From Deltaproteobacteria bacterium (GTDB lineage Bacteria > Desulfobacterota > Dissulfuribacteria > Dissulfuribacterales > JALVPX01), in the NCBI GenBank assembly GCA_027023445.1, contig JALVVK010000020.1, positions 1 to 60,595 of the forward strand: DNA of 60,595 nt, in the 5' to 3' direction. The first letter of the stretch is position 1. The number at the start of each line of letters is the position of its first letter. The notes under the pieces are model-generated. The model saw nothing but the letters and a program-made list of their open reading frames with translations. It searched no databases and had not been told where the DNA came from. A program made the translations under genes and the position numbers. Positions 17,717 to 43,997 of this stretch are shown here, in pieces.

Positions 17717-17797
17717 CCCCAGCACAAATGGTCCCGCCCTTTTGACATTGCATCATTTGGAATACTGGCCTGCAACGGAGAAAACTCATATAGAAAG

Positions 17798-24752: not shown

Positions 24753-24832
24753 CCGGCTTCAGACATAATCAACCCCCCACGGGGATACCCAAGGGGGGCA
24801 CATAAAATCAATCCAAAAATTGAATTCTTGGT

Positions 24833-25981
24833 TTAAATAAGTTCCCAGGTGCCGTTTCTAATCTCGAGCATTTTAAACGCATCCAGGCCAAGCCCAAGGT
24901 GATCCTCAGGACTCATATTGAAAATTCCGCCGGTTCCCACAAACCCTTTGGTCTTTTCGATTTCATCCCTGATCTTTGCCTTATCCAGACATCCAGCCCT
25001 TCTGATGGCCCCGACAGTAATAAAAAGGGCGTCATAGGCATGACCGCCAAAGGTGGAAACAGGGCCATATTTAGCCTCATACATATTCCTGTATCCGAGC
25101 AGAACCTTTTTCTGTGGATCGCTGTCCGGCAACTTATCAGCCACAAGCAACGCGGCGGCCGGCAGCCTTATACCCTCGGCAGCGTCTCCGGCAAGAGCAA
25201 TAAATTTCTTGGAGGCGACGCCATGAGATTCATAAAGAGGAAGCCTGATCCCTAACTGTTTGACATTTTTTGCCACGATGGCAGGGGCCTTTCCAAATCC
25301 GAAATTCAGTATGGCCTGGGCATCCGTGGCCCTTATCTTCGTAAGCTGTGTGGTCATATCCGTATCCGCGTTTCCATATGACTCATCCGCAACGATTTTA
25401 ATGCCATATCTGGGGGCAAGATCCAGACACTGCGCCCTGCCGGATTTATCAAACCCGCCATTGCCTGTTATAAGGGCGATTCTCGTGATATGACGTTTCT
25501 TCATATCTTCAAATATCTTGGCGGCAGCCATACGATCTGTGTGGGGAGTCTTGAATACCCACTTCTTAACCGGCTGGACAATTTTTATAGAACCTGCCAG
25601 TGAAATAAACGGAATTTTTCTGGCCTGAACTATGTCAATTACGGCAAGGCTGGTCCCAGAAGTAGAACCTCCTATAATAACGTCTACACGATCTTTCTGT
25701 ATAAGACGTTTTACTATATCCTTGGCGCTTTTTGCATGACCCGCCGTATCATAATAAACAAGCTCCAGTTTTTTGCCGAGTACTCCACCCTGACTGTTTA
25801 TCTGATCAATATACATCTTCAGTGTCTTCAGCTCGGGATCACCAAGAAAAGAAGCAGGTCCTGTCAAAGCGAGAAACGAACCGATCTTGATTATTCCGGA
25901 TGCATGGACAATGGGAACGAGGGGTGACATGTTAAATAAGAGTATGAAAATAACGGTCAGAAACAGTTTAAGCACCTTCAT
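24833..25981 (-). CDS. ABC transporter substrate-binding protein (LivK-like)
   Basis: Signal peptide; IKIGSFLALTGPASFLGDPELKTLKMYIDQINSQGGVLGKKLELVYYDTAG. Confidence 0.9.
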   Translation of the reverse strand: MKVLKLFLTVIFILLFNMSPLVPIVHASGIIKIGSFLALTGPASFLGDPELKTLKMYIDQINSQGGVLGKKLELVYYDTAGHAKSAKDIVKRLIQKDRVDVIIGGSTSGTSLAVIDIVQARKIPFISLAGSIKIVQPVKKWVFKTPHTDRMAAAKIFEDMKKRHITRIALITGNGGFDKSGRAQCLDLAPRYGIKIVADESYGNADTDMTTQLTKIRATDAQAILNFGFGKAPAIVAKNVKQLGIRLPLYESHGVASKKFIALAGDAAEGIRLPAAALLVADKLPDSDPQKKVLLGYRNMYEAKYGPVSTFGGHAYDALFITVGAIRRAGCLDKAKIRDEIEKTKGFVGTGGIFNMSPEDHLGLGLDAFKMLEIRNGTWELI

Positions 25982-26066: not shown

Positions 26067-27206
26067 CTAATCCTTTGATGTATGACATATTGCGCAGCCG
26101 TTGGTCCCGGATGCAGGCCACGACTTATAATCCCAGCGAAGCAGCGCAGCGTTTGGACTGCCATGTGCCCTGTGACATGAAATACACGTGACAATGGCAT
26201 CACCGGCCCCTGAAAGTACGGTACTCCGCACACCGGCTGTCAAATCACTACTGCCCACGGGCGCGATCAAGCTGTATGTGTGAGAACCATCGCCGGGATA
26301 TTGACCATATTCCTTGGTAGAGACATTGTTCATATCATAGTCAGTCGGGTGACGAAGCCAGGGAGACGCTGTGCCAACATTTGATGAGCCGCTGCTGGCA
26401 TGAAAGGTACCATGACATTCGGCACAAAGATAGCTTATAGTCTCAGTGGTGGTACTGAGAGCTCCATCCACTGCGTAATACTGATTATGATCGCTCGGTG
26501 ACGCGGTATACTCCCAGTCAGGATCTTCTATGCCTTTTATGCCATAAAGGAAACGATAACTTGTGGCAACCGTATACTCCCCCCCACCGTTGCCATCCAC
26601 GATGCCGTTTCCATCCGGATCATCATTCCCGTGATGCGCGCCGCTGATGGCAGCAAAGGTGTCTGTGGTGGTATGCACGCCGTGACAACCATATGTGCCG
26701 GCACATGTAAGCTGGTGAGACCAGGTTGACTCACCATTTGCCACCTGCCCATTGCCGCTTATGCTGTTATCCCATCCTGGTGGTGTGAAAGAAAGAAGAT
26801 TACTATCCTGGCCGACCCCGGGGATGTTTGCCACGTTATGTCCACAGGCATCATTTCCGGCAGCTACCCAGTAAAAATTCCCGCCCGCAAGGGTTTTTCC
26901 CGGGCCCTGCCCTCCAGGACTCTGCACATTATATACTACCGGAGTCAGGTTCACTGTGCCTTTATAAGGGGTTGAACCGGTATCTGAATGGCAACCCACG
27001 CAACTATAACGCAGCAATGCCCTGTTTGGACTTTGATTCGCGCTGTATGTGGCTCCATTAAAGGTTTCGGCCATGGGGCTGCCATTCTGGCTGTTATGCA
27101 TGGTATGACAATTAGAGCAAAGCCCTCTCACTTTGCCCCAACAGGTAGACCAGGGAAAACACACCAAACACAAAATTGCCAGACTCCAGGCTGTTCGTGC
27201 CCGCAT
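26067..27206 (-). CDS. OmcS-like hexaheme c-type cytochrome (copy C); candidate extracellular cytochrome-filament subunit
   Basis: 379 aa, signal peptide; CSNCHTMHNSQNG, CVGCH, CAGTYGCH (CX5CH), CAECHGTFH, LRHP, CISCHRAHG, CAICHTSKD end. Motif order resembles Geobacter OmcS as I recall it. Confidence 0.85.
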   Translation of the reverse strand: MRARTAWSLAILCLVCFPWSTCWGKVRGLCSNCHTMHNSQNGSPMAETFNGATYSANQSPNRALLRYSCVGCHSDTGSTPYKGTVNLTPVVYNVQSPGGQGPGKTLAGGNFYWVAAGNDACGHNVANIPGVGQDSNLLSFTPPGWDNSISGNGQVANGESTWSHQLTCAGTYGCHGVHTTTDTFAAISGAHHGNDDPDGNGIVDGNGGGEYTVATSYRFLYGIKGIEDPDWEYTASPSDHNQYYAVDGALSTTTETISYLCAECHGTFHASSGSSNVGTASPWLRHPTDYDMNNVSTKEYGQYPGDGSHTYSLIAPVGSSDLTAGVRSTVLSGAGDAIVTCISCHRAHGSPNAALLRWDYKSWPASGTNGCAICHTSKD

Positions 27207-27217
27207 AATTCTTCTCC

Positions 27218-28156
27218 CTATCTGTTAAATATCTCCACCCTTCCGTTTCCCTCCTCCACGATACAAAGACGACCCCACGGGTCAAAGGATATCTCCCAGG
27301 GGAAATGCAACCTGCCCTGAGCCTCACCAGGCTGCAAGAAACTGTATTTAAAGCGTCCCACAGGATCAAACACAACCACGTGATCGGCATGACGATCAAG
27401 AATGAAAAAATTGCCCAGGGAATCCACGGCTAAGGAACATGGAAATTCCATTTTTTTCTGTAGATGGATGACCTTCGCAGGAGAATCATCTCCCAGGCTA
27501 AACCTGTAAACCGATTGCTCAGCCTGGGCCAAGGCAAAAAGATCATTGCCGACTATCTTAAAATCCACAAAACCAAGCCGGCAACCATTGCAGGAAAAGA
27601 CTCTCTTTACCTTCAGATCCGCATCAAGGCAGAGGATATCACCATTGGCCTTATTCAATATATAAAACACGCCTCCATGCATTTTCAGACGATCTGGATA
27701 CACCGTCCTGCCATTAAAAGACAGGATATTGGGTACCACCTTCCTGGCCTTGAGATCAATACGGGTAAGGCTGTTTTTGCCTTTTTCCACCAGCCAGATT
27801 ATTCCACCTTTCTCTCTTACCATGTCGAACGGAATGGAAAGACGGCCCATGGCATTAAAGGAACTCAGAAATTTCCCGTCACGATCAAAGGACAAAAGAC
27901 GATTATTGGCAGCATCCACCACGTAATAACGGGACCGTTCCTTGTCAACAAAAAGGGCTGTCGGCATATTCATTGCCAGGCCAGAAGGCTCGCCCCTGAG
28001 GGTAAGAACATGATGCCACGGCACTGCCCACACCGGCACAGCCATGAAAAAAATGGCAAGTAATGCACCCAGGAACACCCGGGTGCTGACCACCGGTCTA
28101 ATGACCTCTCTGGCCCCCTGCTTAATTATCAATAATTGCGATGGCATTGGATACAC
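27218..28156 (-). CDS. NHL-repeat beta-propeller protein, exported
   Basis: N-terminal hydrophobic signal; repeats such as PTALFVDKERSRYYVVDAANNRLLSFDRDGKFLSSF, CSLAVDSLGNFFILDRHADHVVVFDPVGRFKYSF, WEISFDPWGRLCIVEEGNGRVEIF. Confidence 0.85.
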   Translation of the reverse strand: MYPMPSQLLIIKQGAREVIRPVVSTRVFLGALLAIFFMAVPVWAVPWHHVLTLRGEPSGLAMNMPTALFVDKERSRYYVVDAANNRLLSFDRDGKFLSSFNAMGRLSIPFDMVREKGGIIWLVEKGKNSLTRIDLKARKVVPNILSFNGRTVYPDRLKMHGGVFYILNKANGDILCLDADLKVKRVFSCNGCRLGFVDFKIVGNDLFALAQAEQSVYRFSLGDDSPAKVIHLQKKMEFPCSLAVDSLGNFFILDRHADHVVVFDPVGRFKYSFLQPGEAQGRLHFPWEISFDPWGRLCIVEEGNGRVEIFNR

Positions 28157-29313
28157 AGATCTTTCTCCCCGCTTAAAAGCAACTCATATTTGTAATCGGT
28201 TCCCATAGGCTTATGACAGCTGATACATGTCATTTTTTGCCCGGTCCTTGGATCCCTGACCTTGTCACCAAGAGGATGGGTAAACTTGCCCTGGGTCTCA
28301 TGGCACCTTTCGCAGACCGCACTTCCTTCACTCCTGAACATAGCCAGGCGGTTTGATCCATGGACATTATGACATTCCCCACAGTGCGACACCTTTGGAT
28401 GACGGTATATCTTGTCCTGATCCCGTTTGAAGGTATCCTCATGACAACTCCGGCATATCTGTGCCTGACGGCCCTTGAGCAACCCAGAGGTGTCCCCTGC
28501 ATGAGGGCTGTGACATATTATACAGCTGTTTCCCGTTGAGGAGGTAAAATGATTATGTAGGGTCAACACCTTCTTGCTGATATCCTTATGACATTTAAGA
28601 CAGACTTCCGTGCCCGGCTGTCCCCCGGAATGACACACCTTACAGTTGTTCTTCTTAAAGGGCTCATGAAGGAAATTACGAATAAGGTATTTTCTCTTGC
28701 TGCCATGGGGATTATGACATGAGAGACAGTCCTTGATCTCAACCGGATAGCCCTTGTGTGCTTTGTTTAGGGCCTTCCGCTGATGACACTTCAGACAAAG
28801 CTTATCAGGGGAAGTCCGTAACATCTGATAGTTATCCGCCACATGAGGCAGATGACAGACGATACACCGGCCTTTGGCGTATGGACTGTGCGTGGAACCC
28901 TCAAATTTTTTGGGCAAATCCTTATGACAGGCAAAACAGCGATCGGCCAGCTTTCCGTGCACCAGTCCCTTTACCTCGGACTTGTGAGGATCATGACACT
29001 TGAGGCACTGACCCTGGCGTACCGGTTCATGAATTACCCTGCCGCCGGCACCATTGCCAAGCCATTCCCTTTTTTTGTGACACGACTCGCATAACTGGCC
29101 ATCAGGCTTCTGAAGAAGGCCTTTATAACGGGCCACATGAGGATTATGACAGGATTCACATTTCCCTTGGGCAACCGGTCTATGTACTATTTTCGCTGAA
29201 AAATCAGCCTTTTTATGGCACTTAAAACAAACCGCAGACTCGGAAGCGGCATGGACAGCACATACAGGAGCAACCCAGAACAATAATGTCAGCCACAGAA
29301 CAACTCTTGACAT
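28129..29313 (-). CDS. 16-heme c-type cytochrome, paired CXXCH family
   Basis: 16 CXXCH motifs counted; pattern (H.P...G.C..CH.PH...LL....LC..CH); ATG at 29313 overlaps upstream TGA. Confidence 0.92.
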   Translation of the reverse strand: MSRVVLWLTLLFWVAPVCAVHAASESAVCFKCHKKADFSAKIVHRPVAQGKCESCHNPHVARYKGLLQKPDGQLCESCHKKREWLGNGAGGRVIHEPVRQGQCLKCHDPHKSEVKGLVHGKLADRCFACHKDLPKKFEGSTHSPYAKGRCIVCHLPHVADNYQMLRTSPDKLCLKCHQRKALNKAHKGYPVEIKDCLSCHNPHGSKRKYLIRNFLHEPFKKNNCKVCHSGGQPGTEVCLKCHKDISKKVLTLHNHFTSSTGNSCIICHSPHAGDTSGLLKGRQAQICRSCHEDTFKRDQDKIYRHPKVSHCGECHNVHGSNRLAMFRSEGSAVCERCHETQGKFTHPLGDKVRDPRTGQKMTCISCHKPMGTDYKYELLLSGEKDLCIQCHRNY

Positions 29314-31262
29314 CACTTGGCCCTCCCTGGATGACATGGAGCACAATTGCCCTTGGCAAACGGGCGATGACTCACCGGGTACAGCAATGATTTATCCGGA
29401 CCTCCATGAGGGTCATGACAGCCAAGACAGCCGCCGGCGGATGGTTTGATCCCTCCATGCACTTTCAAAAATCGCGCCGTGTCCTCCTTATGACAACCCG
29501 CGCAGGTATCCTGCAGGCTTTTTTTGCCCATTACCGGATGATTAGACGCGTGAGGATCATGGCACGTAGTGCAGCCCTTGACGGCCGGAGGATGACCGAC
29601 CCCGCTCTTCCAGTATCTGGCAACATTTTTATGACACCTGATACATAGTAACGGCTGAGTACTTAGAAGATCATTCGGATGAGATGAACCATGGGCCAGA
29701 TGGCATACGCTACAGTTAGGCACAGCCGCAGGCTTATGTTTTACCTTGCTATGTTCCAGAGTATCCTGAATCTTTTTATGACAACCAAGACAGATTTCTC
29801 CAGGCTGTTTTCTCATATTAAACTCATAGTCACCAGCGTGCGCGTCATGACATTCAACACATTTGCCCTCGGCATAAGGGGCGTGTTTGTGAATTTTGCT
29901 GCTCTCCTTGGAAAGTTCCCGCTTATGACATTTCATGCACAACTCACCCTTTTCCACGGGAAGAAGTAAAAGGTACGGCTGGGAGGCCTGATGCGGATTA
30001 TGACACCCGGTGCATCTACCCTTGGCAAAGGGGCTGTGAAGGCTGAACTTGCTCATCTGATCCTTTATGTCCCCGTGACATCTCACACAAAGATCCTTTT
30101 CCGGGGCCTTCAAAAGCCTGACCTGCGTTGATTCGTGAGGTGTATGACAGGAAAGGCATTCCCCCTTGTCAGACGGTGGATGATGTACAGGGCCGGATGT
30201 AAAATTGACCTTCTTATGACACTTAAAGCAGAGCTTGTTCTGGTTCTGTACTAAAAGTGAAGGTTCCGCTGACCCGTGACCACTGTGACATTCAAGGCAT
30301 TTGCCTTTTACTACGGGATCATGCCTGCTATGTGTGCCTTTTTTACGCCCCTGGTCGTGACATTTAAGGCAGAGGGTTTCAGGCGATGAGGAAAGCATAT
30401 AGGGGAATCTGCTGCCATGAACCGCATGACAATCCGTGCACTTATTCTGAGCAAAGGGTTTGTGTATATGATTAAAAGAGGCCTTGTCATACTTGTGACA
30501 CTTAACACAAAGCGTTTCCGGCTTGCCTCTTAAAACTATGCCCTTTTGAGCATCTATTTTGTGACACGAATCACATTGACCTTTGAGAACAGGTGGATGC
30601 ATCAAAGGCTTCATAAGCCCCTTGGAAGCAGATGAGTGCGGGCTATGACACTGCACACAGGCACTTTTGACCGGATATCCGAAATGGGCTTTTTTGAATG
30701 CCTTTGTACCAAGGGCATCCGCATGACATGTAAGACACGTCTGGTCTTTTCCCTTTTTCAGCAGATCAGGATTGTCTGACGCATGATTGTCATGACAGGT
30801 CTGACAGCCTTTGGCCAAGGGGGGATGCTTTACCTGTCTTTGGAAAGGAGCCTTATCGTGACATGTAAAACAGAAATCCCTGGGAGGAGCGGGCAACAGC
30901 CCTTTATACTGGCTGTTATGGGGGTTATGGCATTTTACGCATTTCCCCTCAGCGACAAACTTGTGAACAAATTTCTTCTTGTTCACCCCCTCCATATCCT
31001 TATGACAGGAAAAACACAGACCCGGCGGATCCTTTTTAAGATATACGCCGCCTATCAGGCCATGCGGCAGATGACAGGCTTCACAGTTGTTATCTTTTAC
31101 AGGGGCGTGAACAACCCCCTGATGATATTTAGCTGCCATGTCATGATGACAGTCCACGCAGCGTTTCCGTTTGGGCCTTGGCGATTGCTGAGGAAGGCAT
31201 GAAGATAATAAAAACGCCGCACACAAAAAGCCCAGAAATATACCAGGCCACCTACTTCTCAT
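29313..31262 (-). CDS. 26-heme c-type cytochrome lipoprotein, paired CXXCH family
   Basis: 26 CXXCH motifs counted in 649 aa; lipobox FLLSSC; 13 paired units. Confidence 0.93.
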   Translation of the reverse strand: MRSRWPGIFLGFLCAAFLLSSCLPQQSPRPKRKRCVDCHHDMAAKYHQGVVHAPVKDNNCEACHLPHGLIGGVYLKKDPPGLCFSCHKDMEGVNKKKFVHKFVAEGKCVKCHNPHNSQYKGLLPAPPRDFCFTCHDKAPFQRQVKHPPLAKGCQTCHDNHASDNPDLLKKGKDQTCLTCHADALGTKAFKKAHFGYPVKSACVQCHSPHSSASKGLMKPLMHPPVLKGQCDSCHKIDAQKGIVLRGKPETLCVKCHKYDKASFNHIHKPFAQNKCTDCHAVHGSRFPYMLSSSPETLCLKCHDQGRKKGTHSRHDPVVKGKCLECHSGHGSAEPSLLVQNQNKLCFKCHKKVNFTSGPVHHPPSDKGECLSCHTPHESTQVRLLKAPEKDLCVRCHGDIKDQMSKFSLHSPFAKGRCTGCHNPHQASQPYLLLLPVEKGELCMKCHKRELSKESSKIHKHAPYAEGKCVECHDAHAGDYEFNMRKQPGEICLGCHKKIQDTLEHSKVKHKPAAVPNCSVCHLAHGSSHPNDLLSTQPLLCIRCHKNVARYWKSGVGHPPAVKGCTTCHDPHASNHPVMGKKSLQDTCAGCHKEDTARFLKVHGGIKPSAGGCLGCHDPHGGPDKSLLYPVSHRPFAKGNCAPCHPGRAK

Positions 31263-32883
31263 TTCCGTCTCCCATTTCGCGCTCCAACTCGTTCCAAGCC
31301 GCTTTGTTAACCCTGATTTCAGACATATCCCTTAATTTCTTTTCGTAATTTGCCTTCAATTCCTGAAATTTCTGCTCTTCAAGCTTCTTTGCTATCCGCT
31401 GCCTTATCTGCTGCAGCGGAATTGGAAGGGCCGGGGTCCGATCCATCAGCTTTATTATAACCGCACGCCCGTTTATTTCTGTCGGAGGGCTTACCTCTCC
31501 CCTGGACAGCTTCTGAATAATAGCTTTTATTTTTTTATCCAGGTGATTAAAGGGGACTCTTTTGACAGGAATATCCCTCGAATAATATTTTTTGGCCGTG
31601 GCAAAAAAATCTTCCCCCCTGCTGATATCCGCCCAGATCTTCTCCAACAATTTCTGATCATCCTCAATTAACGCGAAACTCACGGTCTCCGGACGGGTGA
31701 ACTCGTTGATATGTTTCTTATAATATGCCCTGATCTCCTCATCAGAGACGGTTGCTTTGGGTTCAAATAACCTTTTTTCCAATTCTTTTATAAGTCGGTG
31801 TCCACAATAAAACCTGTAAACCCACTTGAATGGAGGCTTCTGTTCATAATGACGCTCAAGGGCCTCGATGGAAACAAGCGTCTGGGAAATTATCGTCTGA
31901 AGCACCCTGTTCTTTACTATATTAATATCCTGCTTCTTAAAGTGAAATTTTCTTCTGAATCTTAATTCCTTTTTAACCTGGTTCAGAAAAACCCCTGCTG
32001 TTATATTTCCCCTGTTAGTGGAAATCAGCACCTTATCCAGAAGTTCCTTTGGAGTATTGTTAAGGCTCAGTTTTTTGTAGAGATCCCTGTCCACTTTCAC
32101 ATGATATTTAGCCTTCAGACGTCTTACAAGATCAGCTGTAAGCCTTGCCTGCTCCTCATCCCATCTCTTTCTTTTTATTGCAATCTTTACCTTTTTAAAA
32201 TCCTTGTCATCAGGACCTTTTTTGTCCTTGATATGAAATATCACATAAAAACCATGCCAGGCTATCACATCAGAGGTCTGTCCCGGCACCATGGCATATA
32301 CCGTATGTTTCCATGCCTTGGGCATCCATATAGGCCGAACCCACCTTTGCTGATAAAAAAACCTGGATCTCGCCGCCTTATCCGCCTGTGAACGTTTAAT
32401 CAAACCGTCAAAAGTAATCTTGCCCTTAGCCAAATCCTGTACCGCCTTTTGGGCATCTTCTTTCTTCCTGAAGTAAAAAATCTGCATCAACCATCTGGGA
32501 CAATAGTCCTTACGATATATTTTCTTCAGGGTCTTGTCGCTGACATCTGTCTTATAATCCACCTCTTCATTTTTAAGGATCATAAGGGTCCTGACCTTGA
32601 GAAAGGTCGAAACCTTCTCACGATAGGTAGGATCCTTGTAAAGCTCCATGCGTTCCGCCTCGTTTACAAGAAGCTGCCAATTTATAAAGGGATCAGGGGT
32701 CTTGGGAAAAGGACTGTCCTTATCTTTATAATTCTCCCACCAATGCTTGAAATCCTCTACGGTGTAATTCTTCCCGTTTATTGAAACAAGAACCTTGTCT
32801 CCCCATGGCCATGCCATAAGAGAAGACGAGTACACACAGGGCAAAAACAGAAAAAAACAAAGAAACAGTGCTACTTTTCGCAT
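31252..32883 (-). CDS. SurA/PpiC-type peptidyl-prolyl cis-trans isomerase, exported
   Basis: 543 aa; signal peptide; ISRGEDFFATAKKYYSRD...KIKAIIQKLSRGEVSPPTEINGRAVIIKLMDRTPALPIPLQQIRQRIAKKLEEQK (parvulin-like); overlaps next gene by 11 nt. Confidence 0.8.
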   Translation of the reverse strand: MRKVALFLCFFLFLPCVYSSSLMAWPWGDKVLVSINGKNYTVEDFKHWWENYKDKDSPFPKTPDPFINWQLLVNEAERMELYKDPTYREKVSTFLKVRTLMILKNEEVDYKTDVSDKTLKKIYRKDYCPRWLMQIFYFRKKEDAQKAVQDLAKGKITFDGLIKRSQADKAARSRFFYQQRWVRPIWMPKAWKHTVYAMVPGQTSDVIAWHGFYVIFHIKDKKGPDDKDFKKVKIAIKRKRWDEEQARLTADLVRRLKAKYHVKVDRDLYKKLSLNNTPKELLDKVLISTNRGNITAGVFLNQVKKELRFRRKFHFKKQDINIVKNRVLQTIISQTLVSIEALERHYEQKPPFKWVYRFYCGHRLIKELEKRLFEPKATVSDEEIRAYYKKHINEFTRPETVSFALIEDDQKLLEKIWADISRGEDFFATAKKYYSRDIPVKRVPFNHLDKKIKAIIQKLSRGEVSPPTEINGRAVIIKLMDRTPALPIPLQQIRQRIAKKLEEQKFQELKANYEKKLRDMSEIRVNKAAWNELEREMGDGNEK

Positions 32884-33470
32884 CCTTTAAACCCCTTATC
32901 GAACCAGAGCGTCAAAATTTCCTGAGATACATGTTGAGCCAGAGATGTAACCGTGTTTACCATACCGAAGTGCATCACTTTCCTGTAGTCTGCCCCTTCC
33001 CTGTGATGATAGGTACTCCAGAGGATTTTCCCCGTGTGGGCATCCAGAATATTCACGTGCACAGCAAGTGAGGGATTCATCCCCAGAAATTGTCTTTGCT
33101 CCCCCATTGTTATCACTGAACCGGTGATAATGGCCTGAGCACCAAGACGACTTCCAAGAAGTCGAATCTGTTCAATGCTTGGCTGCTGCCCGGGTAACAA
33201 TTTTATCTGATCATATATATCACGGATGTCTCCCTCCTGCGCCACATCAAAATGGCCGGTCCTGATCATCTCAGCCATAAAAACACGGTAGAAAATCAAC
33301 CCACCAAGTGGGTACTGGCTTTCATTCGTAAAAGGAAGAACCGCTACCCGACATATTTCCTGCTTTGGAAGGGGAGAAAGGACCTGAAGAGTAGCCCCCC
33401 TTGGGCTACAGGAATAAAGAAATACCAGGATAATCGCCCCGATGACAGGGAATATACAGCGAATGCTCAA
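32871..33470 (-). CDS. Lipoprotein with CsgG/LpoB/GNA1162-like fold (putative)
   Basis: Signal + VFLYSC; CRVAVLPFTNESQYPLGG...RLGAQAIITGSV. Confidence 0.6.
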   Translation of the reverse strand: MSIRCIFPVIGAIILVFLYSCSPRGATLQVLSPLPKQEICRVAVLPFTNESQYPLGGLIFYRVFMAEMIRTGHFDVAQEGDIRDIYDQIKLLPGQQPSIEQIRLLGSRLGAQAIITGSVITMGEQRQFLGMNPSLAVHVNILDAHTGKILWSTYHHREGADYRKVMHFGMVNTVTSLAQHVSQEILTLWFDKGFKGCEK

Positions 33471-34957
33471 AATTCTGATTCCCAGGTCTCCTGTTTTTTA
33501 CCACGATTGCCGCCCGTTGAGGACTTGTTGGCCATACGCACCAGGTCCTTGATTTCTCTCCGGGCGGAATTACCCAATATATCCTTAAGCATTACCACAC
33601 ACTCAAGCTTCTTGTTCTTTGCCTCGGCAACATTTACACCGATCCGAGCAGGCAACTTCTCGCCTTCACTGGTCTTTACCACGCGTCCATCTTCGGAACG
33701 CACCTCTACGCACCAAAAGGAAATGGGCACCTCTCCCTTGTTCCCAAGATCCACAAACATGTTGCTCCCCTGCCGTTTTACCTGCAGGATCATGGAGGGT
33801 GGGGTCCTTCTAACGGCCACCTTCTGGATCGACTTGGCCATATTATCCGCCTTGTCCCACACACGCAACACCATACGGTAAACACCTTGGTTCACGCTGC
33901 TGCCGCCGCCAGTCTGTCCCTTCCACACAAAGCGGCTGGGAAGATTACCTGTACCATGCTCGCTGATAAGGGATTTGCCTTTTTCGTCTTCAATGGAAAT
34001 CTCCCACCTGGAAATCGGCTCGGGATGAATCAGCTTGGGCACAGCAAAGATACGGTCCCTGAAGGCCACGGAATCTCCCAAACGAACCCCACTTAGCCTC
34101 AAAGTAACGGCAGGTGGAACACTGTCCACGCAATACAGGCCAAGATACGTCTTTTCCGTGCGCCCTGACGACCAGTGAAACACTGCCTCTACAGGATATT
34201 TTCCATCCTTTACAGGGGCGAACCAGTCTGCCGTATATCCCCAGTGACCATCATTATACATGGGAACAGTGCCTATTCCCTTGATGTTAAGATAAAGATC
34301 GGGGGCCTTTCTGCCTATGGGGCGCAATTTCAGACGGCACTCTAACTTGTGACCTGGTTTTACATACAAGGGTCGCAATGATACCGACTGGATGGGGAAA
34401 AACGGGATCCTGCCAAGCACCTGTTCCATCTGATCAGGCCAAGAGGCAAATATATCCTGTGCCACGATGGGAAGCAGTTCTGCGGTCGAATGCGGCTGGT
34501 CAATACCAAGCAATCTCAGCATATCCGCTCTGGAAAGGCCCTCAACCCCAGACCACACGACTCTTGCGTCATCGGTTCTCAAAAGATACAGGGTAAGCCC
34601 CAAGGCACCGGGAGCCTTTTCCTCTTTCTGACAGATTGATCCTAACAAAACCAGGTCTGCTCCAAGCTGTTCGCGCATCCGCAGGACATAATAAGTACTC
34701 AAGGATCCCACCCTCCGGATGCGATGCCTGACCATGAAATTCATCATCTCCTTCTCAGGCACAACCTCAAGCCCCATGGACTTAAGCTCTTTGGAAAGAA
34801 GACGGGTGAAATTGAAATCCACTCCATTCACCCCATGAGACAAATCTTCTATGGGGAATACCGCAACCGTTGTGGCGTAAAGAGTGCCGGCCATAAAGAG
34901 GCCCAAGCAGAAAACCAGTATTGAAACACCAATTTTACGAAACATTTCAAACACCAC
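33467..34957 (-). CDS. Exported protein: FlgO/CsgG-like N-terminal domain plus Ig-like/FlgD-like C-terminal segments
   Basis: TTVAVFPIEDLSHGVNGVDFNFTRLLSKELKSMGLEVV...LGADLVLLGSI; FVWKGQTGGGSSVNQGVYRMVLRVWDKADN; ATGA overlap with the downstream gene. Confidence 0.55.
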   Translation of the reverse strand: MVFEMFRKIGVSILVFCLGLFMAGTLYATTVAVFPIEDLSHGVNGVDFNFTRLLSKELKSMGLEVVPEKEMMNFMVRHRIRRVGSLSTYYVLRMREQLGADLVLLGSICQKEEKAPGALGLTLYLLRTDDARVVWSGVEGLSRADMLRLLGIDQPHSTAELLPIVAQDIFASWPDQMEQVLGRIPFFPIQSVSLRPLYVKPGHKLECRLKLRPIGRKAPDLYLNIKGIGTVPMYNDGHWGYTADWFAPVKDGKYPVEAVFHWSSGRTEKTYLGLYCVDSVPPAVTLRLSGVRLGDSVAFRDRIFAVPKLIHPEPISRWEISIEDEKGKSLISEHGTGNLPSRFVWKGQTGGGSSVNQGVYRMVLRVWDKADNMAKSIQKVAVRRTPPSMILQVKRQGSNMFVDLGNKGEVPISFWCVEVRSEDGRVVKTSEGEKLPARIGVNVAEAKNKKLECVVMLKDILGNSARREIKDLVRMANKSSTGGNRGKKQETWESEF

Positions 34958-34966
34958 GCTTGGCGG

Positions 34967-35590
34967 TCAGGACTGGGCCCCCGCCGGTATAGTCGACAGC
35001 ATTTTGCGCACTACCCTGACCATTACCTGGAAGGAATCCTTGGCTGAAAGCCCAAAAAGCCTTCCAAGCACAGAATAACCACTGCCATGACCGGTTGACT
35101 GCCATATTACCATTGAGGTCTTTGCCTCAACCAGCCTAAGGCTCAAGGTAAATTCAGGATATGAAAAGGACCCTCTACGAGACTCTTCCATATTATCTAC
35201 CGATCCAAGGATAAATGCCTGAACACCGAGCCTCTGCCCCAGACGTCTAAGGGTAAGCTTGTCCAAAGGGGCCCCGGGATCAATGGCCTCTTCTCTTAAA
35301 ACGCTATCCACAATTCCCTTATCCACTACGTCAAAGAGTCCCATGGAAAGCACCTGGGTTATGGTTATCTCTCTGGCTCTTTCCGCTATAAACTGCTCTT
35401 TGGTATGGTTGGTAAATGGCAAAACCGCAACCTTTTTTATAAAGCCAAGCTGGACATCCTGCCTCAGAAAATGGTCCGAAGCCACATTGGCCCCGCATCC
35501 ATATAGAGACAAAATAATCGCCAGCATCAAAACCACAAGGAAGCCTTTCCGCATCCCTACACCCCCCGAAATTTTATTCCCCATGTTCAT
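34967..35590 (-). CDS. Lipoprotein with CsgG/LpoB/GNA1162-like fold (putative)
   Basis: LSLYGCGANVASD lipobox; VAVLPFTNHTKEQFIAERAREITITQVLSMGLFDVVDKG...RLGVQAFILGSVDN. Confidence 0.65.
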   Translation of the reverse strand: MNMGNKISGGVGMRKGFLVVLMLAIILSLYGCGANVASDHFLRQDVQLGFIKKVAVLPFTNHTKEQFIAERAREITITQVLSMGLFDVVDKGIVDSVLREEAIDPGAPLDKLTLRRLGQRLGVQAFILGSVDNMEESRRGSFSYPEFTLSLRLVEAKTSMVIWQSTGHGSGYSVLGRLFGLSAKDSFQVMVRVVRKMLSTIPAGAQS

Positions 35591-35624
35591 AAACTAACGC
35601 ACTCTCCCTCTTTATCCAAGCACA

Positions 35625-37700
35625 CTAAAAACCGGAAAACCTTGCTGTAAGCTGCCCGGAAACTGTCCACGAATTTTCGCCTGCCTCTGCTATCTTATAA
35701 GATCCATTTACGTTAGTTGAAAGATAACGGCTTATTCTCCAGCTCCAGAATGCGTTATACGTCTGCGTGGTCACTGTGCTGTACGCATATGAATAACCAA
35801 AACTTAACTGTGTTTTTTCCGTAGCAGCCCATGCTATAGTCAGGCTCCCGCCCCTGGTATTATCATGCCCGGATGCCCAGTTACTATAGCCAGAAGCCCT
35901 GAAAGACAAGACATCTGATGGTCTCCAACTAAGGTTCAGATTAGTATCAGTTGAATCTGTATCACCGGTATCGCTCTTACTGACAATATATCCTCCATAA
36001 AAATCCACGGTAATCCGCGGCGTAAGCCTTGCGGTCAGGTTAAGCCTTGAATTATAGCTGTCCGTATTGGTTCCGGAACTCAGATTATCCGCAGAGGTAT
36101 AAACAAGGTCAAGACCCGCATTCAGATCCGGGAAAAGGGCGGCTGTGGTATAAATAGAATAGCTGTCGGTAGTGGCTGTCTTGGTTCCCCCTTCATAGGT
36201 CTCATTTCTCGTAACGCCTGTACTCACATCCAGCGTATCAAGAGGAAAGGTAATCACGTTGAGAGAATAGGCCCTTGTCCTGCTGTCGGGTTGCCCGCTG
36301 TCCTTCTGAAGGCTATCAGTTATACTCAGATTCGAGGTGATAGCTTCCTTGGGACGCCAGCTCAACGACCCGGTCTGATTAATCCTGTCAGTGTTGACGC
36401 CTCCAGACGGTCTGGCAAAATCCAAGGACAGGCTGTAGGCCAAGGTAACCTTGTCCATTGGTCGATAATTAACCGAGGCGTCAGTAGAATAATCTTTATA
36501 GGTACGGGAGGATGTCACCAGGCCGGAACCTGAAATCTCTTCATAGGCCTTTATCTCCGAAAAATTAACTGTGCTTGTAAGTGGCTGCACCGCGGCAAGC
36601 TTGATATACCTGGCCTTTATCCCGGAAACCGGAATTTCAAAACGTCTGGACGAACTATTGTAGGAATAGGCCTGCGCTGTCACCTGCTGGGTCCATGTAT
36701 TTCCGTCCGGGCTTGTCCACACTCCCCATAGGAAGCCTGAAGCATTTGTCGCGCCCAGATCAGTGGTTGTATAAAGATATATTCGATCGACCCGAATAAA
36801 ATCCATTCTGATGGCAATGTTGGTCGTCTCACCGGGTGCCGCGCTGTATGCGATGTCCGTGGTACTGTCATTGGTAAGTCCTGAATTGACTGCGGGCAGA
36901 TCGGTATTTGGCGTAGTATCGTTCCCTGCATAGGCCTGAACTATATTATCCTCAATAAGAGCCGTGCCGGTTGCGCCCGTGTGGGCCGTGGCCTCTGTGA
37001 GATAATAGCTGAAATTTTGGGATAAAGATACGTTTAGTCTGTTATCCAAAAAACCCTTGGCCGCCCTGGCCGAGACCATGTGTCGGCTGGTGCTGGACTT
37101 TGAATCGTTCACCTTGTCCTTACTATCTGAATAATAATAGCTGTAGGCAGTCTTAAGCACACCCCAGCTCCAGTCCGCGTCTATTCCGTTATAAAAGGAT
37201 TCCGTATCCGTTGTCTTTGGCCTCTGGTCATCCGTAGACCAGGTCTGCCCGAAATAACCCCTCAGTGCGGGCCACAGAGGCTTATCCCATTTGCTTTTCC
37301 AGTTAGCCTGCCATGTCTTGCTTGAGGTATCCGGGCTGTCGGATAATCTCTGTTCAACGGCAGTAGCGGAAAGGCCTAAATCAAAAATGTCGTTTCTGGT
37401 ATTCAAACTTACAACAGGTGTATAAAGTTCAGATAACCTTCCATTGTTCCAATTTCGCGTATAACGGAAAGAACCCGACCAATCCATCGACTCAGAAAGA
37501 TCATATCCGAAATCAATATTGTAATACTGAAGTAAATTCTTACTGGTAGTGCCGTCGCCTGTTCTGGTATACAACCAGCTGCCGCTAAGCCCTATAGGCC
37601 TTGACCACGCCACAGCAGATGTAAAAGATAATGACAGCATAACCATTACCGCGACAAATTTCCGGTATTCGATTCGTAGCCGGCTCCCTTCCCTACCCAT
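35625..37700 (-). CDS. Large outer-membrane beta-barrel protein with embedded discoidin (F5/8 type C)-like segment; candidate porin of an electron conduit
   Basis: 691 aa; signal peptide; alternating amphipathic strands; ends ...WTVSGQLTARFSGF (C-terminal aromatic); insertion IRVDRIYLYTTTDLGATNASGFLWGVWTSPDGNTWTQQV...ARYIKLAAV...VNFSEIKAYE. Confidence 0.8.
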   Translation of the reverse strand: MGREGSRLRIEYRKFVAVMVMLSLSFTSAVAWSRPIGLSGSWLYTRTGDGTTSKNLLQYYNIDFGYDLSESMDWSGSFRYTRNWNNGRLSELYTPVVSLNTRNDIFDLGLSATAVEQRLSDSPDTSSKTWQANWKSKWDKPLWPALRGYFGQTWSTDDQRPKTTDTESFYNGIDADWSWGVLKTAYSYYYSDSKDKVNDSKSSTSRHMVSARAAKGFLDNRLNVSLSQNFSYYLTEATAHTGATGTALIEDNIVQAYAGNDTTPNTDLPAVNSGLTNDSTTDIAYSAAPGETTNIAIRMDFIRVDRIYLYTTTDLGATNASGFLWGVWTSPDGNTWTQQVTAQAYSYNSSSRRFEIPVSGIKARYIKLAAVQPLTSTVNFSEIKAYEEISGSGLVTSSRTYKDYSTDASVNYRPMDKVTLAYSLSLDFARPSGGVNTDRINQTGSLSWRPKEAITSNLSITDSLQKDSGQPDSRTRAYSLNVITFPLDTLDVSTGVTRNETYEGGTKTATTDSYSIYTTAALFPDLNAGLDLVYTSADNLSSGTNTDSYNSRLNLTARLTPRITVDFYGGYIVSKSDTGDTDSTDTNLNLSWRPSDVLSFRASGYSNWASGHDNTRGGSLTIAWAATEKTQLSFGYSYAYSTVTTQTYNAFWSWRISRYLSTNVNGSYKIAEAGENSWTVSGQLTARFSGF

Positions 37701-37745
37701 TCCGAATCCCTCTTAAGAGCCCCTTGAATATTCGTGCACTTATTT

Positions 37746-37788
37746 AAAAAAAAGGCCCTCTTGCCGGATTTACGATCAGGAGGACCTT
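37746..37788 (-). terminator. Intrinsic terminator downstream of the heptaheme cytochrome gene
   Basis: Minus strand AAGGTCCTCCTG-loop-CAAGAGGGCCTTTTTTTT. Confidence 0.85.
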
Positions 37789-37811
37789 AAAATTGTTCTA
37801 TTTTCTATTCC

Positions 37812-38912
37812 CTATTCATCCTTTGAGGTATGACAGACAAAGCATCCACAACTAGCGTTGGCACTCCCCGCGTCACACGCAGAATAATCCCAGCGTAGCA
37901 TATCCCTGTAGGGTGTACCATGCGCACGATGACAGGAAAGGCACATTACCTGATCACCCTCTGCCTGACCCGCAGCAACGTATACGGTAGCGCTCGACCC
38001 TGTCATGGTAGCCAGTCTGGCCTGATCTCTTGCCAAGGGAGCAAGGGGAGAATATCCCGCACCCCCATTATAGTTATGATACTCCTTACCTGCTGCCGTA
38101 TCAGAAAGCGCATAACCGGTCGGATGCAGCAACCAGGGGGATCCGCCATTAGAGGTATCAGTGCTTGTGTTCACATAACCATGAAAATTGCTGTGACAAC
38201 CAGCGCAATAAGCGCTCATTGAATAGTCGTCCGAAGATAGATTCACGCCTGAATGAACCGGGTCCGTGCATCCTGCATACTCATTATGATCTGAGGGACT
38301 CACTGTATATTCCCAGTCATCATCCTCAATACCTTTAACGCCAGTCTCATTGTTACCGTGAGCGCTTGAATTCAAAAACCTGTAAAAACCACCGGCAGCC
38401 CCGACTACCGCAGTCTGGGTATCATCTGCATGGTGCCTTGGAGTATGACAACTCTCGCAGTTATCAATGCGGTCATGACATCCCGCACAGGCACCTCCTG
38501 ATACAGGCCCCCCCGGAGCCGTGGTAAGGTTACCATCAGGAGTCATACCAGGAACATTAAGACAATTATGTCCCTTTGATCCATCCAAAGTTACCCAGTA
38601 AAAATTCCCGCCAGCCAAGGTATCTTTACCATAGGTAGGTGGAATATTGCTGAAAACATATGGAGTAGTTCCATTTGAGGACCCGCCACCCTTATTTGTC
38701 CCTGTATGACAGGCAATGCAGGGATCGGTCCCCACATTCAACAGGTACTTGTTCGGCCCATCGGGATCCACAACACTCCCGTTCTGTGAATTATGCATGG
38801 TATGACAGTTGACACACGGCCCGGAAACCCGGGCATAAACAGACGGTATAAGCGCAAGCGACAATATAATTATTAAAAAAACTGAAAATTGACACCATCC
38901 TCCCTTTAACAT
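37812..38912 (-). CDS. OmcS-like heptaheme c-type cytochrome (copy B); candidate extracellular filament subunit
   Basis: 366 aa; CVNCHTMHNSQNG, CIACH, CAGCH, CESCH, CAGCHSNFHG, LLHP, CLSCHRAHG, CFVCHTSKDE = 7 hemes. Confidence 0.85.
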   Translation of the reverse strand: MLKGGWCQFSVFLIIILSLALIPSVYARVSGPCVNCHTMHNSQNGSVVDPDGPNKYLLNVGTDPCIACHTGTNKGGGSSNGTTPYVFSNIPPTYGKDTLAGGNFYWVTLDGSKGHNCLNVPGMTPDGNLTTAPGGPVSGGACAGCHDRIDNCESCHTPRHHADDTQTAVVGAAGGFYRFLNSSAHGNNETGVKGIEDDDWEYTVSPSDHNEYAGCTDPVHSGVNLSSDDYSMSAYCAGCHSNFHGYVNTSTDTSNGGSPWLLHPTGYALSDTAAGKEYHNYNGGAGYSPLAPLARDQARLATMTGSSATVYVAAGQAEGDQVMCLSCHRAHGTPYRDMLRWDYSACDAGSANASCGCFVCHTSKDE

Positions 38913-38935
38913 GTCTTACCCCTCACTCCAACTAT

Positions 38936-38972
38936 ATCGCACCTGTCCCCCCCCAAGGAAGACAGGTGCGAT
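38936..38972 (-). promoter_or_regulatory. Perfect 12-bp stem hairpin between the two OmcS-like genes (attenuator/mRNA-stabiliser or terminator)
   Basis: ATCGCACCTGTC-ccccccccaaggaa-GACAGGTGCGAT; no T-tract. Confidence 0.6.
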
Positions 38973-39000
38973 TCGATCATAAACAATGCCCGTACCCTAA

Positions 39001-40101
39001 CTAATCCTTATTGGTATGACAGGCAAAGCACCCACAGGATGCATTGGCTGAACCAGCATTACAGGCAGAATAATCCCACCTGAGCAGATCAGCATGGTTA
39101 GTACCATGGGCGCGATGGCAGGATATACAGGTAACGATATCATTGCTGTTGGGCGTAATCACAGAGGTTGTGGTGTCAGGATTAATGGCGCCGACAGGAG
39201 CCGTCACATTGTACGTTGTATAAGCGCTATAGCCTGCACCGGACGCACTTCCCAGAGAAAAATCTGTGGGATGGCGCAGCCAGGGGGATGCCCCAGCACC
39301 CTGATAACTGACATTGCTTATAGCTGAAGAGGCGTGGAAATTGCCATGGCACTCGGCACAAAGATAACTGATCGTGTTGTTATCCGATGTAGTATAGCCG
39401 TTGGCCCCCTTATATCCGTTATGATCGGTGGAGCTGACCGTATATTCCCAGTCAGAATCCTCGGCACCCAGAATACCATTAAGGAAGCGGTAACTGGTAG
39501 CCGTTGTTAATCCGTCTATTGTACCATTGTCTCCATGGTGAGCACCACGGATGGCGGCATAATTATCAGTTGACGTATGGCTTCCATGGCATCCGTATGT
39601 GCCCGCACAGGTAAGCTGGTTTGTACCCCAGTCAGCGGCACCATTGGCTATACCGTTTGAAGTAGTGGCATTCCATCCGGGAGGTGTATAGCCGAGATTT
39701 GAATCAACACCGGCTACGCCCTTCACATTATGACCACAGGTATCATTGGCACCACCGCTGGTAGCCACCCAGTAAAAGTCACCACCCGCAAGGGTAAGCC
39801 CATTGCCCTGTCCCCCCGGATCAACAGTTCTGATCACAACCGGGATATTGTTGTTTGACCCCTTGAGCGCGGTTGCACCACTATGACAGCCGATACAGTC
39901 ACCCCTTGTAAGGGCCCTGTTTGGTGTTGTGGAATTATTAAATGCCATTGGAGCCCCATTCTGACTATTATGCATGGTATGACAGTCAGAACATGGACCG
40001 GACACTCCGGCTGACGCCGTGCCGGGCAGCCAGCTCACAAGGCCGATTGCCACGCAACCGACCAGTCCCTTGATAATTTTTGATTTTTTAAGATTAAACA
40101 T
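39001..40101 (-). CDS. OmcS-like hexaheme c-type cytochrome (copy A); candidate extracellular filament subunit
   Basis: CSDCHTMHNSQNG, CIGCH, CAGTYGCH (CX5CH), CAECHGNFH, LRHP, CISCHRAHG, CFACHTNKD; ATG at 40101 with RBS ggga preferred over 40125. Confidence 0.87.
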   Translation of the reverse strand: MFNLKKSKIIKGLVGCVAIGLVSWLPGTASAGVSGPCSDCHTMHNSQNGAPMAFNNSTTPNRALTRGDCIGCHSGATALKGSNNNIPVVIRTVDPGGQGNGLTLAGGDFYWVATSGGANDTCGHNVKGVAGVDSNLGYTPPGWNATTSNGIANGAADWGTNQLTCAGTYGCHGSHTSTDNYAAIRGAHHGDNGTIDGLTTATSYRFLNGILGAEDSDWEYTVSSTDHNGYKGANGYTTSDNNTISYLCAECHGNFHASSAISNVSYQGAGASPWLRHPTDFSLGSASGAGYSAYTTYNVTAPVGAINPDTTTSVITPNSNDIVTCISCHRAHGTNHADLLRWDYSACNAGSANASCGCFACHTNKD

Positions 40102-40398
40102 AGCCATCTCCCTTAAAGCATGCACTTAAACGCAACATTAACACTGGTATTAAAGACCTATACCAATATCCCTGAAACAATTTTGGAATTCTAAGATGAG
40201 AATACCTTCCGCTTATCACCCCCTTGCGAAATCCCCTGAAGCAACCTTCTGATACCAATAACTTTTATTCGAGATACTTCCCCCAAATATCTCGCCCTCG
40301 AAGGCCCCAGAAGAATTCAAAAAATTAATATTAAAAAAATTAACGCAATTGCACATTCTTTCTATTTATAATATCGACCATATTAGGAATCAAAATTA

Positions 40399-40426
40399 AT
40401 TTTAGTTCAAAAAAAAACTATGTCAA
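40399..40426 (-). promoter_or_regulatory. Sigma-70-like promoter for the minus-strand cytochrome/porin cluster
   Basis: Minus strand TTGACA (40426-40421) - 16 nt - TAAAAT (40404-40399); about 290 nt leader to the ATG. Confidence 0.5.
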
Positions 40427-40538
40427 CCATGTCAAACAAACTTATTTCAGTGGATTTATTTTGCATTTTACATGCCAGAGCCTTCCTGAAACCCAGACCC
40501 AAACCCCCCTATATTAAACCATCTTTACCTCTTTCAAT

Positions 40539-40573
40539 CTTATAATGAAAAAAATTTCACTTTTTATTATAAG
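40539..40573. promoter_or_regulatory. AT-rich inverted repeat
   Basis: CTTATAATgaaaaaaatttcactttttATTATAAG. Confidence 0.5.
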
Positions 40574-41004
40574 AAAAAAATTCATATATGAAAAAAATCA
40601 CCCCTCAGGGCATGGGAAACAAAACCATTGAACTTTTTATATTGACTGAACAAGGTGGTTTGATAGAACAGAAAAAGCAAAGTCATCGGACGTGAAGGAA
40701 AAAGGCAATACCAGGGAGGACCGGCGACCACCCTGCCTCAAAAACAGGCAGCAAGGATTCTTAGCACCACAGAAAAATAAGACCCTGCCTGCACCGAAAA
40801 AATCAAGATATTATCCATTAACGCCCAGAATGATCCTGAAGAAACCATAAAGGAAACGAGACGGAAAGCGGAATCCCCCAACTGATAACGAAAAGGAAAC
40901 AACATAGGGGCGGCGGTAAATACCACGACCAAAACAAGCTTTTACGCAAAACGCACACTTTGAGACATTTATCACCTGGTTGACATGACAGGACATCCAA
41001 ACAT

Positions 41005-41022
41005 GGTCGTCCCGGGACGACC
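41005..41022. promoter_or_regulatory. Perfect 18-bp palindrome in the divergent intergenic region (possible operator)
   Basis: GGTCGTCCCGGGACGACC equals its own reverse complement. Confidence 0.5.
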
Positions 41023-41286
41023 TGAGACACAGGAACATAATTTGCTTGCACAGACATTTCAAAATACGGGGAGAGCCCAACAATGCCGACAGAAATCTTT
41101 TCCCACAAAATCCACAAAACAGGACCTTGTGCGCCAGGGGCTGCAATCCGATGATTTTCAGAGGTAGGGAATTTATGTTTCAGGCCTAAACGGACGAACT
41201 ATTCTATGAAGCCTGAATCCTTCAGTATAAGTGAAAGAGACCATGTCTCAAGCAAAAACAACCAACCATGGAGGGGAGGTTCTTAA

Positions 41287-42732
41287 ATGAAAACCGACAG
41301 ATTTCATCAGGGATCCAAAACACAGGCTTTACTTGTCACATTCCTTTTCACGGCCATGGCCGCCATTCTGGTCTCAGGTTGCACGCCGGGAAACAACCTT
41401 AAAAGCACCATTAAAAATTTTAATAATCAGCCATGCAAAGTATCCGTTTTTTTAAACCTTAAACGTCCTGACTGCCAGAAGATATGGACGAAGATATCTT
41501 CAGTGGAAATCCTGTCTGAAAACCAGCTCTGGATTCCACTTGAACTCTATTCTGACGAACTGGTCACAGGAACCATAAAAACCGGCCAAACCCTCCTTGC
41601 AAGAGGAGGATTGCCCGCAGGCGTCTACACAAAAATCAGGCTCAGGATTGGCAAAGCGGCACTGGTAAGGGGTAAAAGCAGGTTACTGCTCGCCCTGGAT
41701 ACCCCGGAAATAGTCATGAGTCTCTCAAAGCCACTGTATTTATCCAAAGGAGACAGCACATGCGCATTTATCAACTGGGACGTGGATGCATCCCTTACCG
41801 GTTCTGCCATACTCAAACCAGTCATGAAGGCAAGCCCTCAGGCGATCCCTCTGGTATCTGACCTGGCCTACGTGGCATGCCCGGAAATAGACACCGTTTA
41901 CCAGATAAGAGCTGACAAAAACTGGGTATGCGGCTCTGTGGGGATAAGCGGTTTTCCCACCTATCTGCAGGCCAATTCATCGAAAAAAAAGTTATATGTA
42001 TTGGCTGCAAACGAGGCATCCATAAAAATATTGGATTCATCAACCAATCATCAGATAGATGTCCTGCAGATCCCTCTTATCCAGGAACCAAAGCACATGA
42101 TCCTTGGACCTGACGCAGAATATATTTACCTGATCGACAGGTGGACCAATCAGCTTATCAAGGTAAACCTGGAAAACGGCAGCATGGAAGGACAGGTGAG
42201 GGTCGGGGACAGGCCTGAATACATGCTGTATATTCCCGATCGGGACAGGGTGGCTGTATCGTCTGAACTGTCACAGGCGGTGTCTCTCGTGGATCCTTCG
42301 TCAATGAAGGTTACCGAGACCATAATGACGGGCGGGGTGCCACAGGGGCTACTTGCCTACAATGGGAAACTATATATCGCGGAAGCAGACTCCAACATGG
42401 TCTGCGTATATAACCTGCAGACAGGCAGGATCCTAAAAAGAATCAATGTGGGGACCGGCCCGAGACGACTGATTGAAAACAACGAACACATATATGTCAC
42501 AAATTACGACTCACGTACAATTTCCGTGCTCCTTCCGTCCCAGCTGAATGTACAAAAAGAAATATATCTCAAGGGAAGACCCCTTGAGATGGCCATATTG
42601 GACAAAAGACGCTGGCTCTATGTTGGAGACGGTGATTCCCTGGGCATATGGGTAATTGACCTGACCTCAAACAGGACAAACGGTTTTATAACATTAGGCT
42701 CCAAGCCCATGGGAATAGCGGTAATCCAGTAG
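41287..42732 (+). CDS. Lipoprotein with DUF4382-like N-terminus and YVTN-type beta-propeller
   Basis: Lipobox ILVSGC; WTKISSVEILSENQLWIPLELY...GGLPAGVYTKIRLRIGKA; repeats such as IYLIDRWTNQLIKVNLENGSMEGQVRVGDRPEYML, LYIAEADSNMVCVYNLQTGRILKRINVGTGPRRLI. Confidence 0.82.
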   Translation: MKTDRFHQGSKTQALLVTFLFTAMAAILVSGCTPGNNLKSTIKNFNNQPCKVSVFLNLKRPDCQKIWTKISSVEILSENQLWIPLELYSDELVTGTIKTGQTLLARGGLPAGVYTKIRLRIGKAALVRGKSRLLLALDTPEIVMSLSKPLYLSKGDSTCAFINWDVDASLTGSAILKPVMKASPQAIPLVSDLAYVACPEIDTVYQIRADKNWVCGSVGISGFPTYLQANSSKKKLYVLAANEASIKILDSSTNHQIDVLQIPLIQEPKHMILGPDAEYIYLIDRWTNQLIKVNLENGSMEGQVRVGDRPEYMLYIPDRDRVAVSSELSQAVSLVDPSSMKVTETIMTGGVPQGLLAYNGKLYIAEADSNMVCVYNLQTGRILKRINVGTGPRRLIENNEHIYVTNYDSRTISVLLPSQLNVQKEIYLKGRPLEMAILDKRRWLYVGDGDSLGIWVIDLTSNRTNGFITLGSKPMGIAVIQ

Positions 42733-42824
42733 AATAAAGACCCTGTACCAATACTGAATAAACGCCCCGAAAACCGTTTAACAGGGCAGAGGAATTTTGT
42801 GCTCAAAATCAGGAGGAACATCAC

Positions 42825-43997
42825 ATGGCCGGAACATGGAAAAAACTGATCCTGTATCTTATCATCGCATCCGCCATGACATCCGTGGCCTGTACGGGCA
42901 CCTGCCATGCAGCAAGCCGCTGCGTAAAATGTCATGAAAAACTGTTCAACACAAAAATATCAGAACATACGGTGCACAGACCCTTTATGGAACAACGATG
43001 CGATGTGTGCCATGAACAGAAACTCCCACAACAAGCGGCCCAAGAAACAACGACCTGGAAAATGTCCGGCGAACTTAACAAGGGCACTAACCTTATTCCC
43101 CTAAGCGCACTGTGGCAAAACTATGAAATAGTAGTACGCCTTCAGGACATGAGCGGCTTATACAGAATTGACAAAAAGCTGATCTTTGACCGACTTGAAG
43201 GGCTAAAGACCACAAAATACATGTCGCAAAACGAGATACTGAACCCACAGGTCAATGACGTCCACAGGGACATATTCATAAGCGCGTCCCTGACATGGGA
43301 CACCCCCTGTCCCTCCCGCTGCGAAATTCATTACGGCACAGATGGAAGCCCGGACGAGATACTTTACGAAACGACTTACTCTATTCATCACCACATAGAA
43401 ATTCAGGGCCTAAAAAAAGGCAGAGAATATCATGCCTTCATACGCGCTGAGGGTATAAACCATGAGACAACCGAATCCCAGCAGGTCTCTTTTAATACCA
43501 AAAAAGAAACGGTGGCCTCCTCGCATCCTTCAAAGGGAGGTAAGCCTGCTGGCAATAGCGGCTTAACAATAAATAAGGCAGCATTGGTTAAAATAGGATC
43601 AAAACCTTTCCTGATGCTCGATTTAAACAGGAACGCCCTTGTGAGGCTGGGCCTCAACAATTCAACACATATCAGCCATGACGTATCAGATACGGTTACG
43701 AGCGCAAGGGCATGGCATCCAAAATTGCTCTCACTCTATGAAGCAGGATATCTTAACTGCAAGAAATGTCACAAAAACAGTGACCGGGACAGCCATCCGG
43801 TGAACATAAGGCTGCTTCCCGAAATGAATCCTCCGAAAGACTTTGTGACTGCAATGGGCAAGGTGACATGCGTGTCATGCCATGACCCCCACGGCAGCCA
43901 ATACGCATTTAGCCTTCGACGGAACAACACGGCCCTTTGCCAGGGATGCCATAAAGCCACCCAGTATGCGGCCAATAAATATCAGGTACCAAACTAA
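42825..43997 (+). CDS. Pentaheme c-type cytochrome with central Fn3-like domain
   Basis: CVKCH, CDVCH (N-term); CKKCH, CVSCHDPHGS, CQGCH (C-term); between them SASLTWDTPCPSRCEIHYGTDGS...YHAFIRAEGINHETTES. Confidence 0.85.
   Translation: MAGTWKKLILYLIIASAMTSVACTGTCHAASRCVKCHEKLFNTKISEHTVHRPFMEQRCDVCHEQKLPQQAAQETTTWKMSGELNKGTNLIPLSALWQNYEIVVRLQDMSGLYRIDKKLIFDRLEGLKTTKYMSQNEILNPQVNDVHRDIFISASLTWDTPCPSRCEIHYGTDGSPDEILYETTYSIHHHIEIQGLKKGREYHAFIRAEGINHETTESQQVSFNTKKETVASSHPSKGGKPAGNSGLTINKAALVKIGSKPFLMLDLNRNALVRLGLNNSTHISHDVSDTVTSARAWHPKLLSLYEAGYLNCKKCHKNSDRDSHPVNIRLLPEMNPPKDFVTAMGKVTCVSCHDPHGSQYAFSLRRNNTALCQGCHKATQYAANKYQVPN

Follow-up and report, generated by a model that had tools for sequence, protein, structure and literature searches.

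An oet/osc-type multiheme cytochrome cluster with a conserved CX5CH motif in a sulfur-metabolising member of the Dissulfuribacterales

The stretch of DNA analysed here (the window, 60,595 nucleotides of contig JALVVK010000020.1 from a bacterium of the order Dissulfuribacterales) contains a large multiheme cytochrome locus at positions 26067–43997. Judged from its sequence, the locus is a member of the known oet/osc kind of cluster, matching the published block in gene order and kind. It probably functions in extracellular electron transfer, with the export, anchoring and wiring roles proposed below. All 13 genes listed in a first-pass annotation of the sequence are present, eleven on the minus strand and two divergent genes on the plus strand. 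Six encode multiheme cytochromes, whose CXXCH motifs number 5, 16, 26, 7, 5 and 5 along the window and add up to 64; residue-shuffled cytochromes reach at most four. The genes at 26067 and 39001 each carry one additional CX5CH motif (CAGTYGCH). The 66 heme motifs counted in the first-pass annotation are obtained only when these two are included, which is probably right because CX5CH aligns with heme 3 of OmcS.

Read in the direction of transcription, the minus-strand run begins with an OmcS-like cytochrome (39001–40125, omcS/omcT/oscC position, recognised by profile and fold) that has five CXXCH and one CX5CH (39586–39609). It is followed by an OmcS-like cytochrome with seven CXXCH, which has an extra CESCH beside the heme-3 site (37812–38912), and by a large predicted outer-membrane β-barrel of the OetI/OscD type (35625–37700). 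Next come an LpoB/CsgG-like lipoprotein with the lipobox LYGC (34967–35590, oscE position), an envelope protein with an Ig/FlgD-like region and a weakly LpoB-like N-terminus (33467–34957, oscF position), a second, LpoB/TolB_N-like lipoprotein with the lipobox LYSC (32871–33470, oscG position) and a SurA/PpiC-type peptidyl-prolyl isomerase (PPIase, 31252–32883, oscH position). The run continues with a 26-heme cytochrome lipoprotein (29313–31262, OetB/OscI), a 16-heme periplasmic cytochrome (28129–29346, OetA/OscJ) and an NHL six-bladed β-propeller (27218–28156, position of GSU2493), and it ends with another OmcS-like cytochrome with five CXXCH and one CX5CH (26067–27206, CX5CH at 26682–26705). 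The localisation of the two large cytochromes is read from sequence patterns, a lipobox (LSSC) in the 26-heme protein and a plain signal peptide in the 16-heme protein. The osc letters are given by gene order, and the likeness to osc rests on order, kind and heme count. The plus-strand genes encode a lipoprotein with DUF4382-like and YNCE-like β-propeller parts (41287–42732) and a five-heme cytochrome with an Fn3-like domain (42825–43997).

The gene overlaps pointed out in the first-pass annotation are real and measure 4, 13, 11, 34 and 28 bp if the longest starts are assumed, although 29313 is a more likely start of the 16-heme gene than its longest start. Pfam confirms the SurA/PpiC isomerase (Rotamase_2, 5e-25), and the NHL propeller also passes the cut-off. 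The three CsgG/LpoB/FlgO-like proteins proposed earlier fare less evenly. The 34967 protein exceeds the LpoB threshold (25.2 vs 22.3 bits), but the 32871 protein has LpoB, TolB_N and GNA1162 matches that all fall below cut-off, and the sole Pfam match of the 33467 protein is a sub-threshold FlgD Ig domain. The divergent region (40000–41400) contains no GEMM/c-di-GMP riboswitch and no other Rfam element, and promoter- and terminator-like matches barely exceed those of shuffled sequence. Genes for a branched-chain amino acid type ABC transporter (22132–25981) lie on the same strand directly downstream of the cytochrome operon, and a Fur-type regulator fused to a FeoA domain is found at 48845–49543.

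The source genome (2.24 Mb, 99% complete) encodes dsrA, aprA and a NiFe hydrogenase large subunit. Of its 26 paired-CXXCH matches, 23 fall in this locus, as do all three of its OmcS-like genes. The locus is at most a candidate for the self-contained system proposed in the first-pass annotation, since electron carriers of the inner membrane and small ones of the periplasm would need to be encoded in other parts of the genome. The window also contains a gene for an STT3/PglB-like oligosaccharyltransferase (19871–22078), near a run of glycan-synthesis genes (6485–18712). OmcS and OmcE wires are glycosylated, as reported.

The barrel assignment of the first-pass annotation agrees with the predicted structure of the 35625 protein, which has approximately 29 long strands (pLDDT of 90.6). 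Residues ~246–377 of the barrel (window 36570–36965) form an insert that resembles F5/8 type C (galactose-binding-like) domains. The barrel profile matches F5/8 type C and CBM32-like domains at profile positions ~252–394, and two homologues of the barrel match Pfam F5_F8_type_C. The fold of MtrB has the highest TM score among the matches listed (0.40–0.42, 6% identity). A profile search gave no MtrB match, so the barrel is not detectable as an MtrB-family member by sequence. Its gene adjoins those of periplasmic and surface-lipoprotein multiheme cytochromes, as localised by signal-peptide and lipobox patterns.

The OmcS-like proteins are distant relatives of OmcS (identity of ~21%). A profile of 54 homologues has OmcS (PDB id: 6ef8) as its best PDB match (9e-27, positions 32–336 of 357), and the structure predicted for the 39001 protein has OmcS as its sole PDB match (E of 1e-5, probability of 1.00, modest TM of 0.40–0.43). 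Six putative heme sites are found in the same order as in OmcS, five being CXXCH and one a conserved CX5CH that aligns with the CSSCH of OmcS heme 3. Among 82 nonredundant homologues, 71 carry CX5CH here, mostly in the form C-[AS]-G-x-x-G-C-H; the other 11 have CX2CH (five, including the seven-heme protein of the window), CX4CH (four) or CX3CH (two). All spacings share one alignment column, in which both cysteines and the histidine are invariant. The 26067 and 39001 proteins therefore probably bind a sixth heme at the CX5CH site. The first heme has the motif CHTMH, as in OmcS, and its histidine, which we take to be the intersubunit ligand in the OmcS structure, is invariant in all 54 homologues of the profile.

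Unusual heme motif spacing has precedents. Other outer cytochromes have noncanonical spacings, as at heme 1 of OmcZ, and CX3–5CH motifs have been predicted in further cytochromes by Shi 2014, where covalent heme binding by CX>4CH was left undetermined (PMC4245776). The exact term CX5CH was not found in text searches of the literature. We lean towards the view that in the majority of OmcS-family wire subunits of oet/osc loci the third heme is attached via CX5CH. If so, the CX2CH, CX3CH, CX4CH and CX5CH paralogues would be a natural test series for covalent binding at spacings above four and for the effect of spacing on the wire. No earlier description was found of the conserved CX5CH at the heme-3 site or of the F5/8 type C-like insert of the barrel, and both may be new. 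Homology to OmcS does not prove that these proteins form filaments, because among the Geobacter homologues of OmcS, OmcS alone is known to polymerise (PMC12977616). What cytochrome filaments do physiologically is itself under dispute (PMC11077965).

The core of the locus is an eight-gene block with the order barrel, LpoB-like protein, Ig protein, lipoprotein, PPIase, 26-heme cytochrome, 16-heme cytochrome and propeller. This order is kept within the Dissulfuribacterales, in another lineage of the phylum and in named loci of Desulfobulbaceae, Desulfuromonadales (Malonomonas rubra) and other Deltaproteobacteria; loci of Nitrospirota carry the core in a somewhat rearranged form. In all, ~35 named genomes from the Desulfobacterota and Nitrospirota yielded the block. 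Loci were gathered by alignment of the LpoB-like protein and scored for each gene only where the contig left room. With the figures thus conditional on the presence of the LpoB-like protein, the barrel gene is present in 42 of 43 loci, the PPIase in 37 of 38, the 26-heme gene in 33 of 35 (with exactly 26 motifs in 33 of 33) and the 16-heme gene in 31 of 32. Barrel and PPIase also co-occur across 59 relatives, ten of which have both the barrel and the PPIase, one only the PPIase, two only the barrel and 46 neither (Fisher p ~1e-8). A tree of the core genes places the window beside locus L061 with good support, and locus L053 (UBA3076, DFBQ), also from the Dissulfuribacterales, has the same gene order as the window with 47% identity over the core. 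A Poribacteria locus (L104) contains LpoB-like and PPIase-like genes and 14- and 19-heme cytochromes with no recognised barrel; it is possibly a distant variant of the cluster.

This gene set has been described before. The core of Skennerton 2017 comprises a six-bladed propeller, 16- and 26-heme cytochromes and a PPIase (PMC5539420). Murali 2023 named OetA, OetB and OetI, with OmcX/OmcS-like neighbours, modelled them as a conduit and found the Oet cassette in all four clades of ANME partners, including Seep-SRB2, of which DFBQ (UBA3076) is species 3 (PMC10553843). The 26-heme protein is periplasmic in one of these papers and a surface lipoprotein in the other (PMC5539420, PMC10553843). The window shares with oetABI the propeller, the 16- and 26-heme cytochromes, the PPIase, the barrel and the OmcX/OmcS-like cytochromes, all in one cassette. 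The window genome is from a different family within the Dissulfuribacterales, its core proteins are at most 47% identical, and unlike the ANME partners it keeps a NiFe hydrogenase gene; an ANME partnership is not indicated.

The second close counterpart is the osc (omcS companion) operon of Geobacter sulfurreducens, GSU2504–GSU2493 (Shen 2025, as described in the citing papers PMC12977616 and PMC13194489), in which an OmcS-like gene precedes an eight-gene block that includes the 26-heme GSU2495 (oscI) and GSU2494 (oscJ). The eight genes GSU2500–2493, which lie downstream of the OmcS-like GSU2501, have been implicated in maturing and secreting OmcS nanowires and called a nanowire secretion cluster (PMC12977616), and roles are proposed for OscH in folding, OscE/F/G in secretion and OscD in morphology (PMC13194489). 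Compared with this operon, the wire-type subunits of the window differ in having CX5CH at heme 3 or seven hemes, and a further OmcS-like gene stands at the downstream end. OmcS itself, which is known to polymerise, has CSSCH at heme 3, whereas the candidate wire subunits encoded at 26067 and 39001 have CX5CH. The MtrCAB and Pcc (OmbB-OmaB-OmcB) complexes are likewise built from a large barrel and multiheme cytochromes in the periplasm and at the surface, but the window differs from them by the F5/8 type C-like insert of its barrel, a larger number of hemes and additional envelope proteins. The first-pass proposal of a nanowire combined with a conduit is supported insofar as OmcS-family cytochromes, the barrel, the lipoprotein 26-heme and the periplasmic 16-heme cytochromes are co-conserved; its claim that the combination is unusual does not hold, because the same gene set has been published as oetABI and osc.

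In the mechanism that we propose, the three OmcS-family subunits would be chaperoned by the PPIase, exported, and polymerised into heme filaments. The barrel, the LpoB-like lipoproteins and the Ig protein would export or anchor these subunits, and the propellers could serve as scaffolds. The periplasmic 16-heme and the lipoprotein 26-heme cytochromes would connect periplasm and filament by relaying electrons through the barrel or along it. Electrons may flow outwards to a mineral or a partner, or inwards from a partner.

The barrel block could instead mainly fold and secrete OmcS-type subunits, as in the osc view, with the 16- and 26-heme proteins aiding maturation or loading and no porin-cytochrome conduit being formed. 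With its LpoB-like lipoproteins, Ig protein and PPIase, the conserved block goes beyond what a porin-cytochrome complex requires, and the osc roles and the cluster name quoted above (PMC13194489, PMC12977616) point the same way. However, the exact counts of 26 and 16 hemes in nearly every homologue suggest a fixed electron path, and OetABI has been modelled as a conduit (PMC10553843). We regard a mainly folding and secretory role as a less likely but serious alternative.

Two further readings dispense with a surface structure or with a link between barrel and cytochromes. It is very unlikely that the role of the cluster is confined to soluble respiration or electron storage in the periplasm: the 16-heme protein does have a plain signal peptide, and the NiFe hydrogenase and dsrA/aprA products could use periplasmic cytochromes, but the 26067, 37812 and 39001 proteins belong to the extracellular OmcS family and are co-conserved with the large barrel and the lipoproteins. 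Still less credible is a nutrient or siderophore transporter standing among the cytochromes by chance. TonB receptors are indeed among the fold matches of the barrel, yet MtrB scores higher among the matches listed, Pfam and profile searches found no plug, no TonB family match and no known transporter family, and the barrel adjoins cytochromes in 42 of 43 loci and tends to be found together with the PPIase across relatives.

The oet/osc-type reading gives a clear example of such a cluster beyond Geobacter and the known ANME partners, in a sulfur-metabolising bacterium in which a single locus accounts for nearly all of the paired-heme cytochrome domains. The 26- and 16-heme partners with their fixed heme counts, the F5/8 type C-like insert and the CX5CH motif are handles for distinguishing a conduit from a wire exporter or from a system that is both. 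The conserved CX5CH is also a handle on heme binding by CX>4CH motifs, the question left open by Shi 2014 (PMC4245776).
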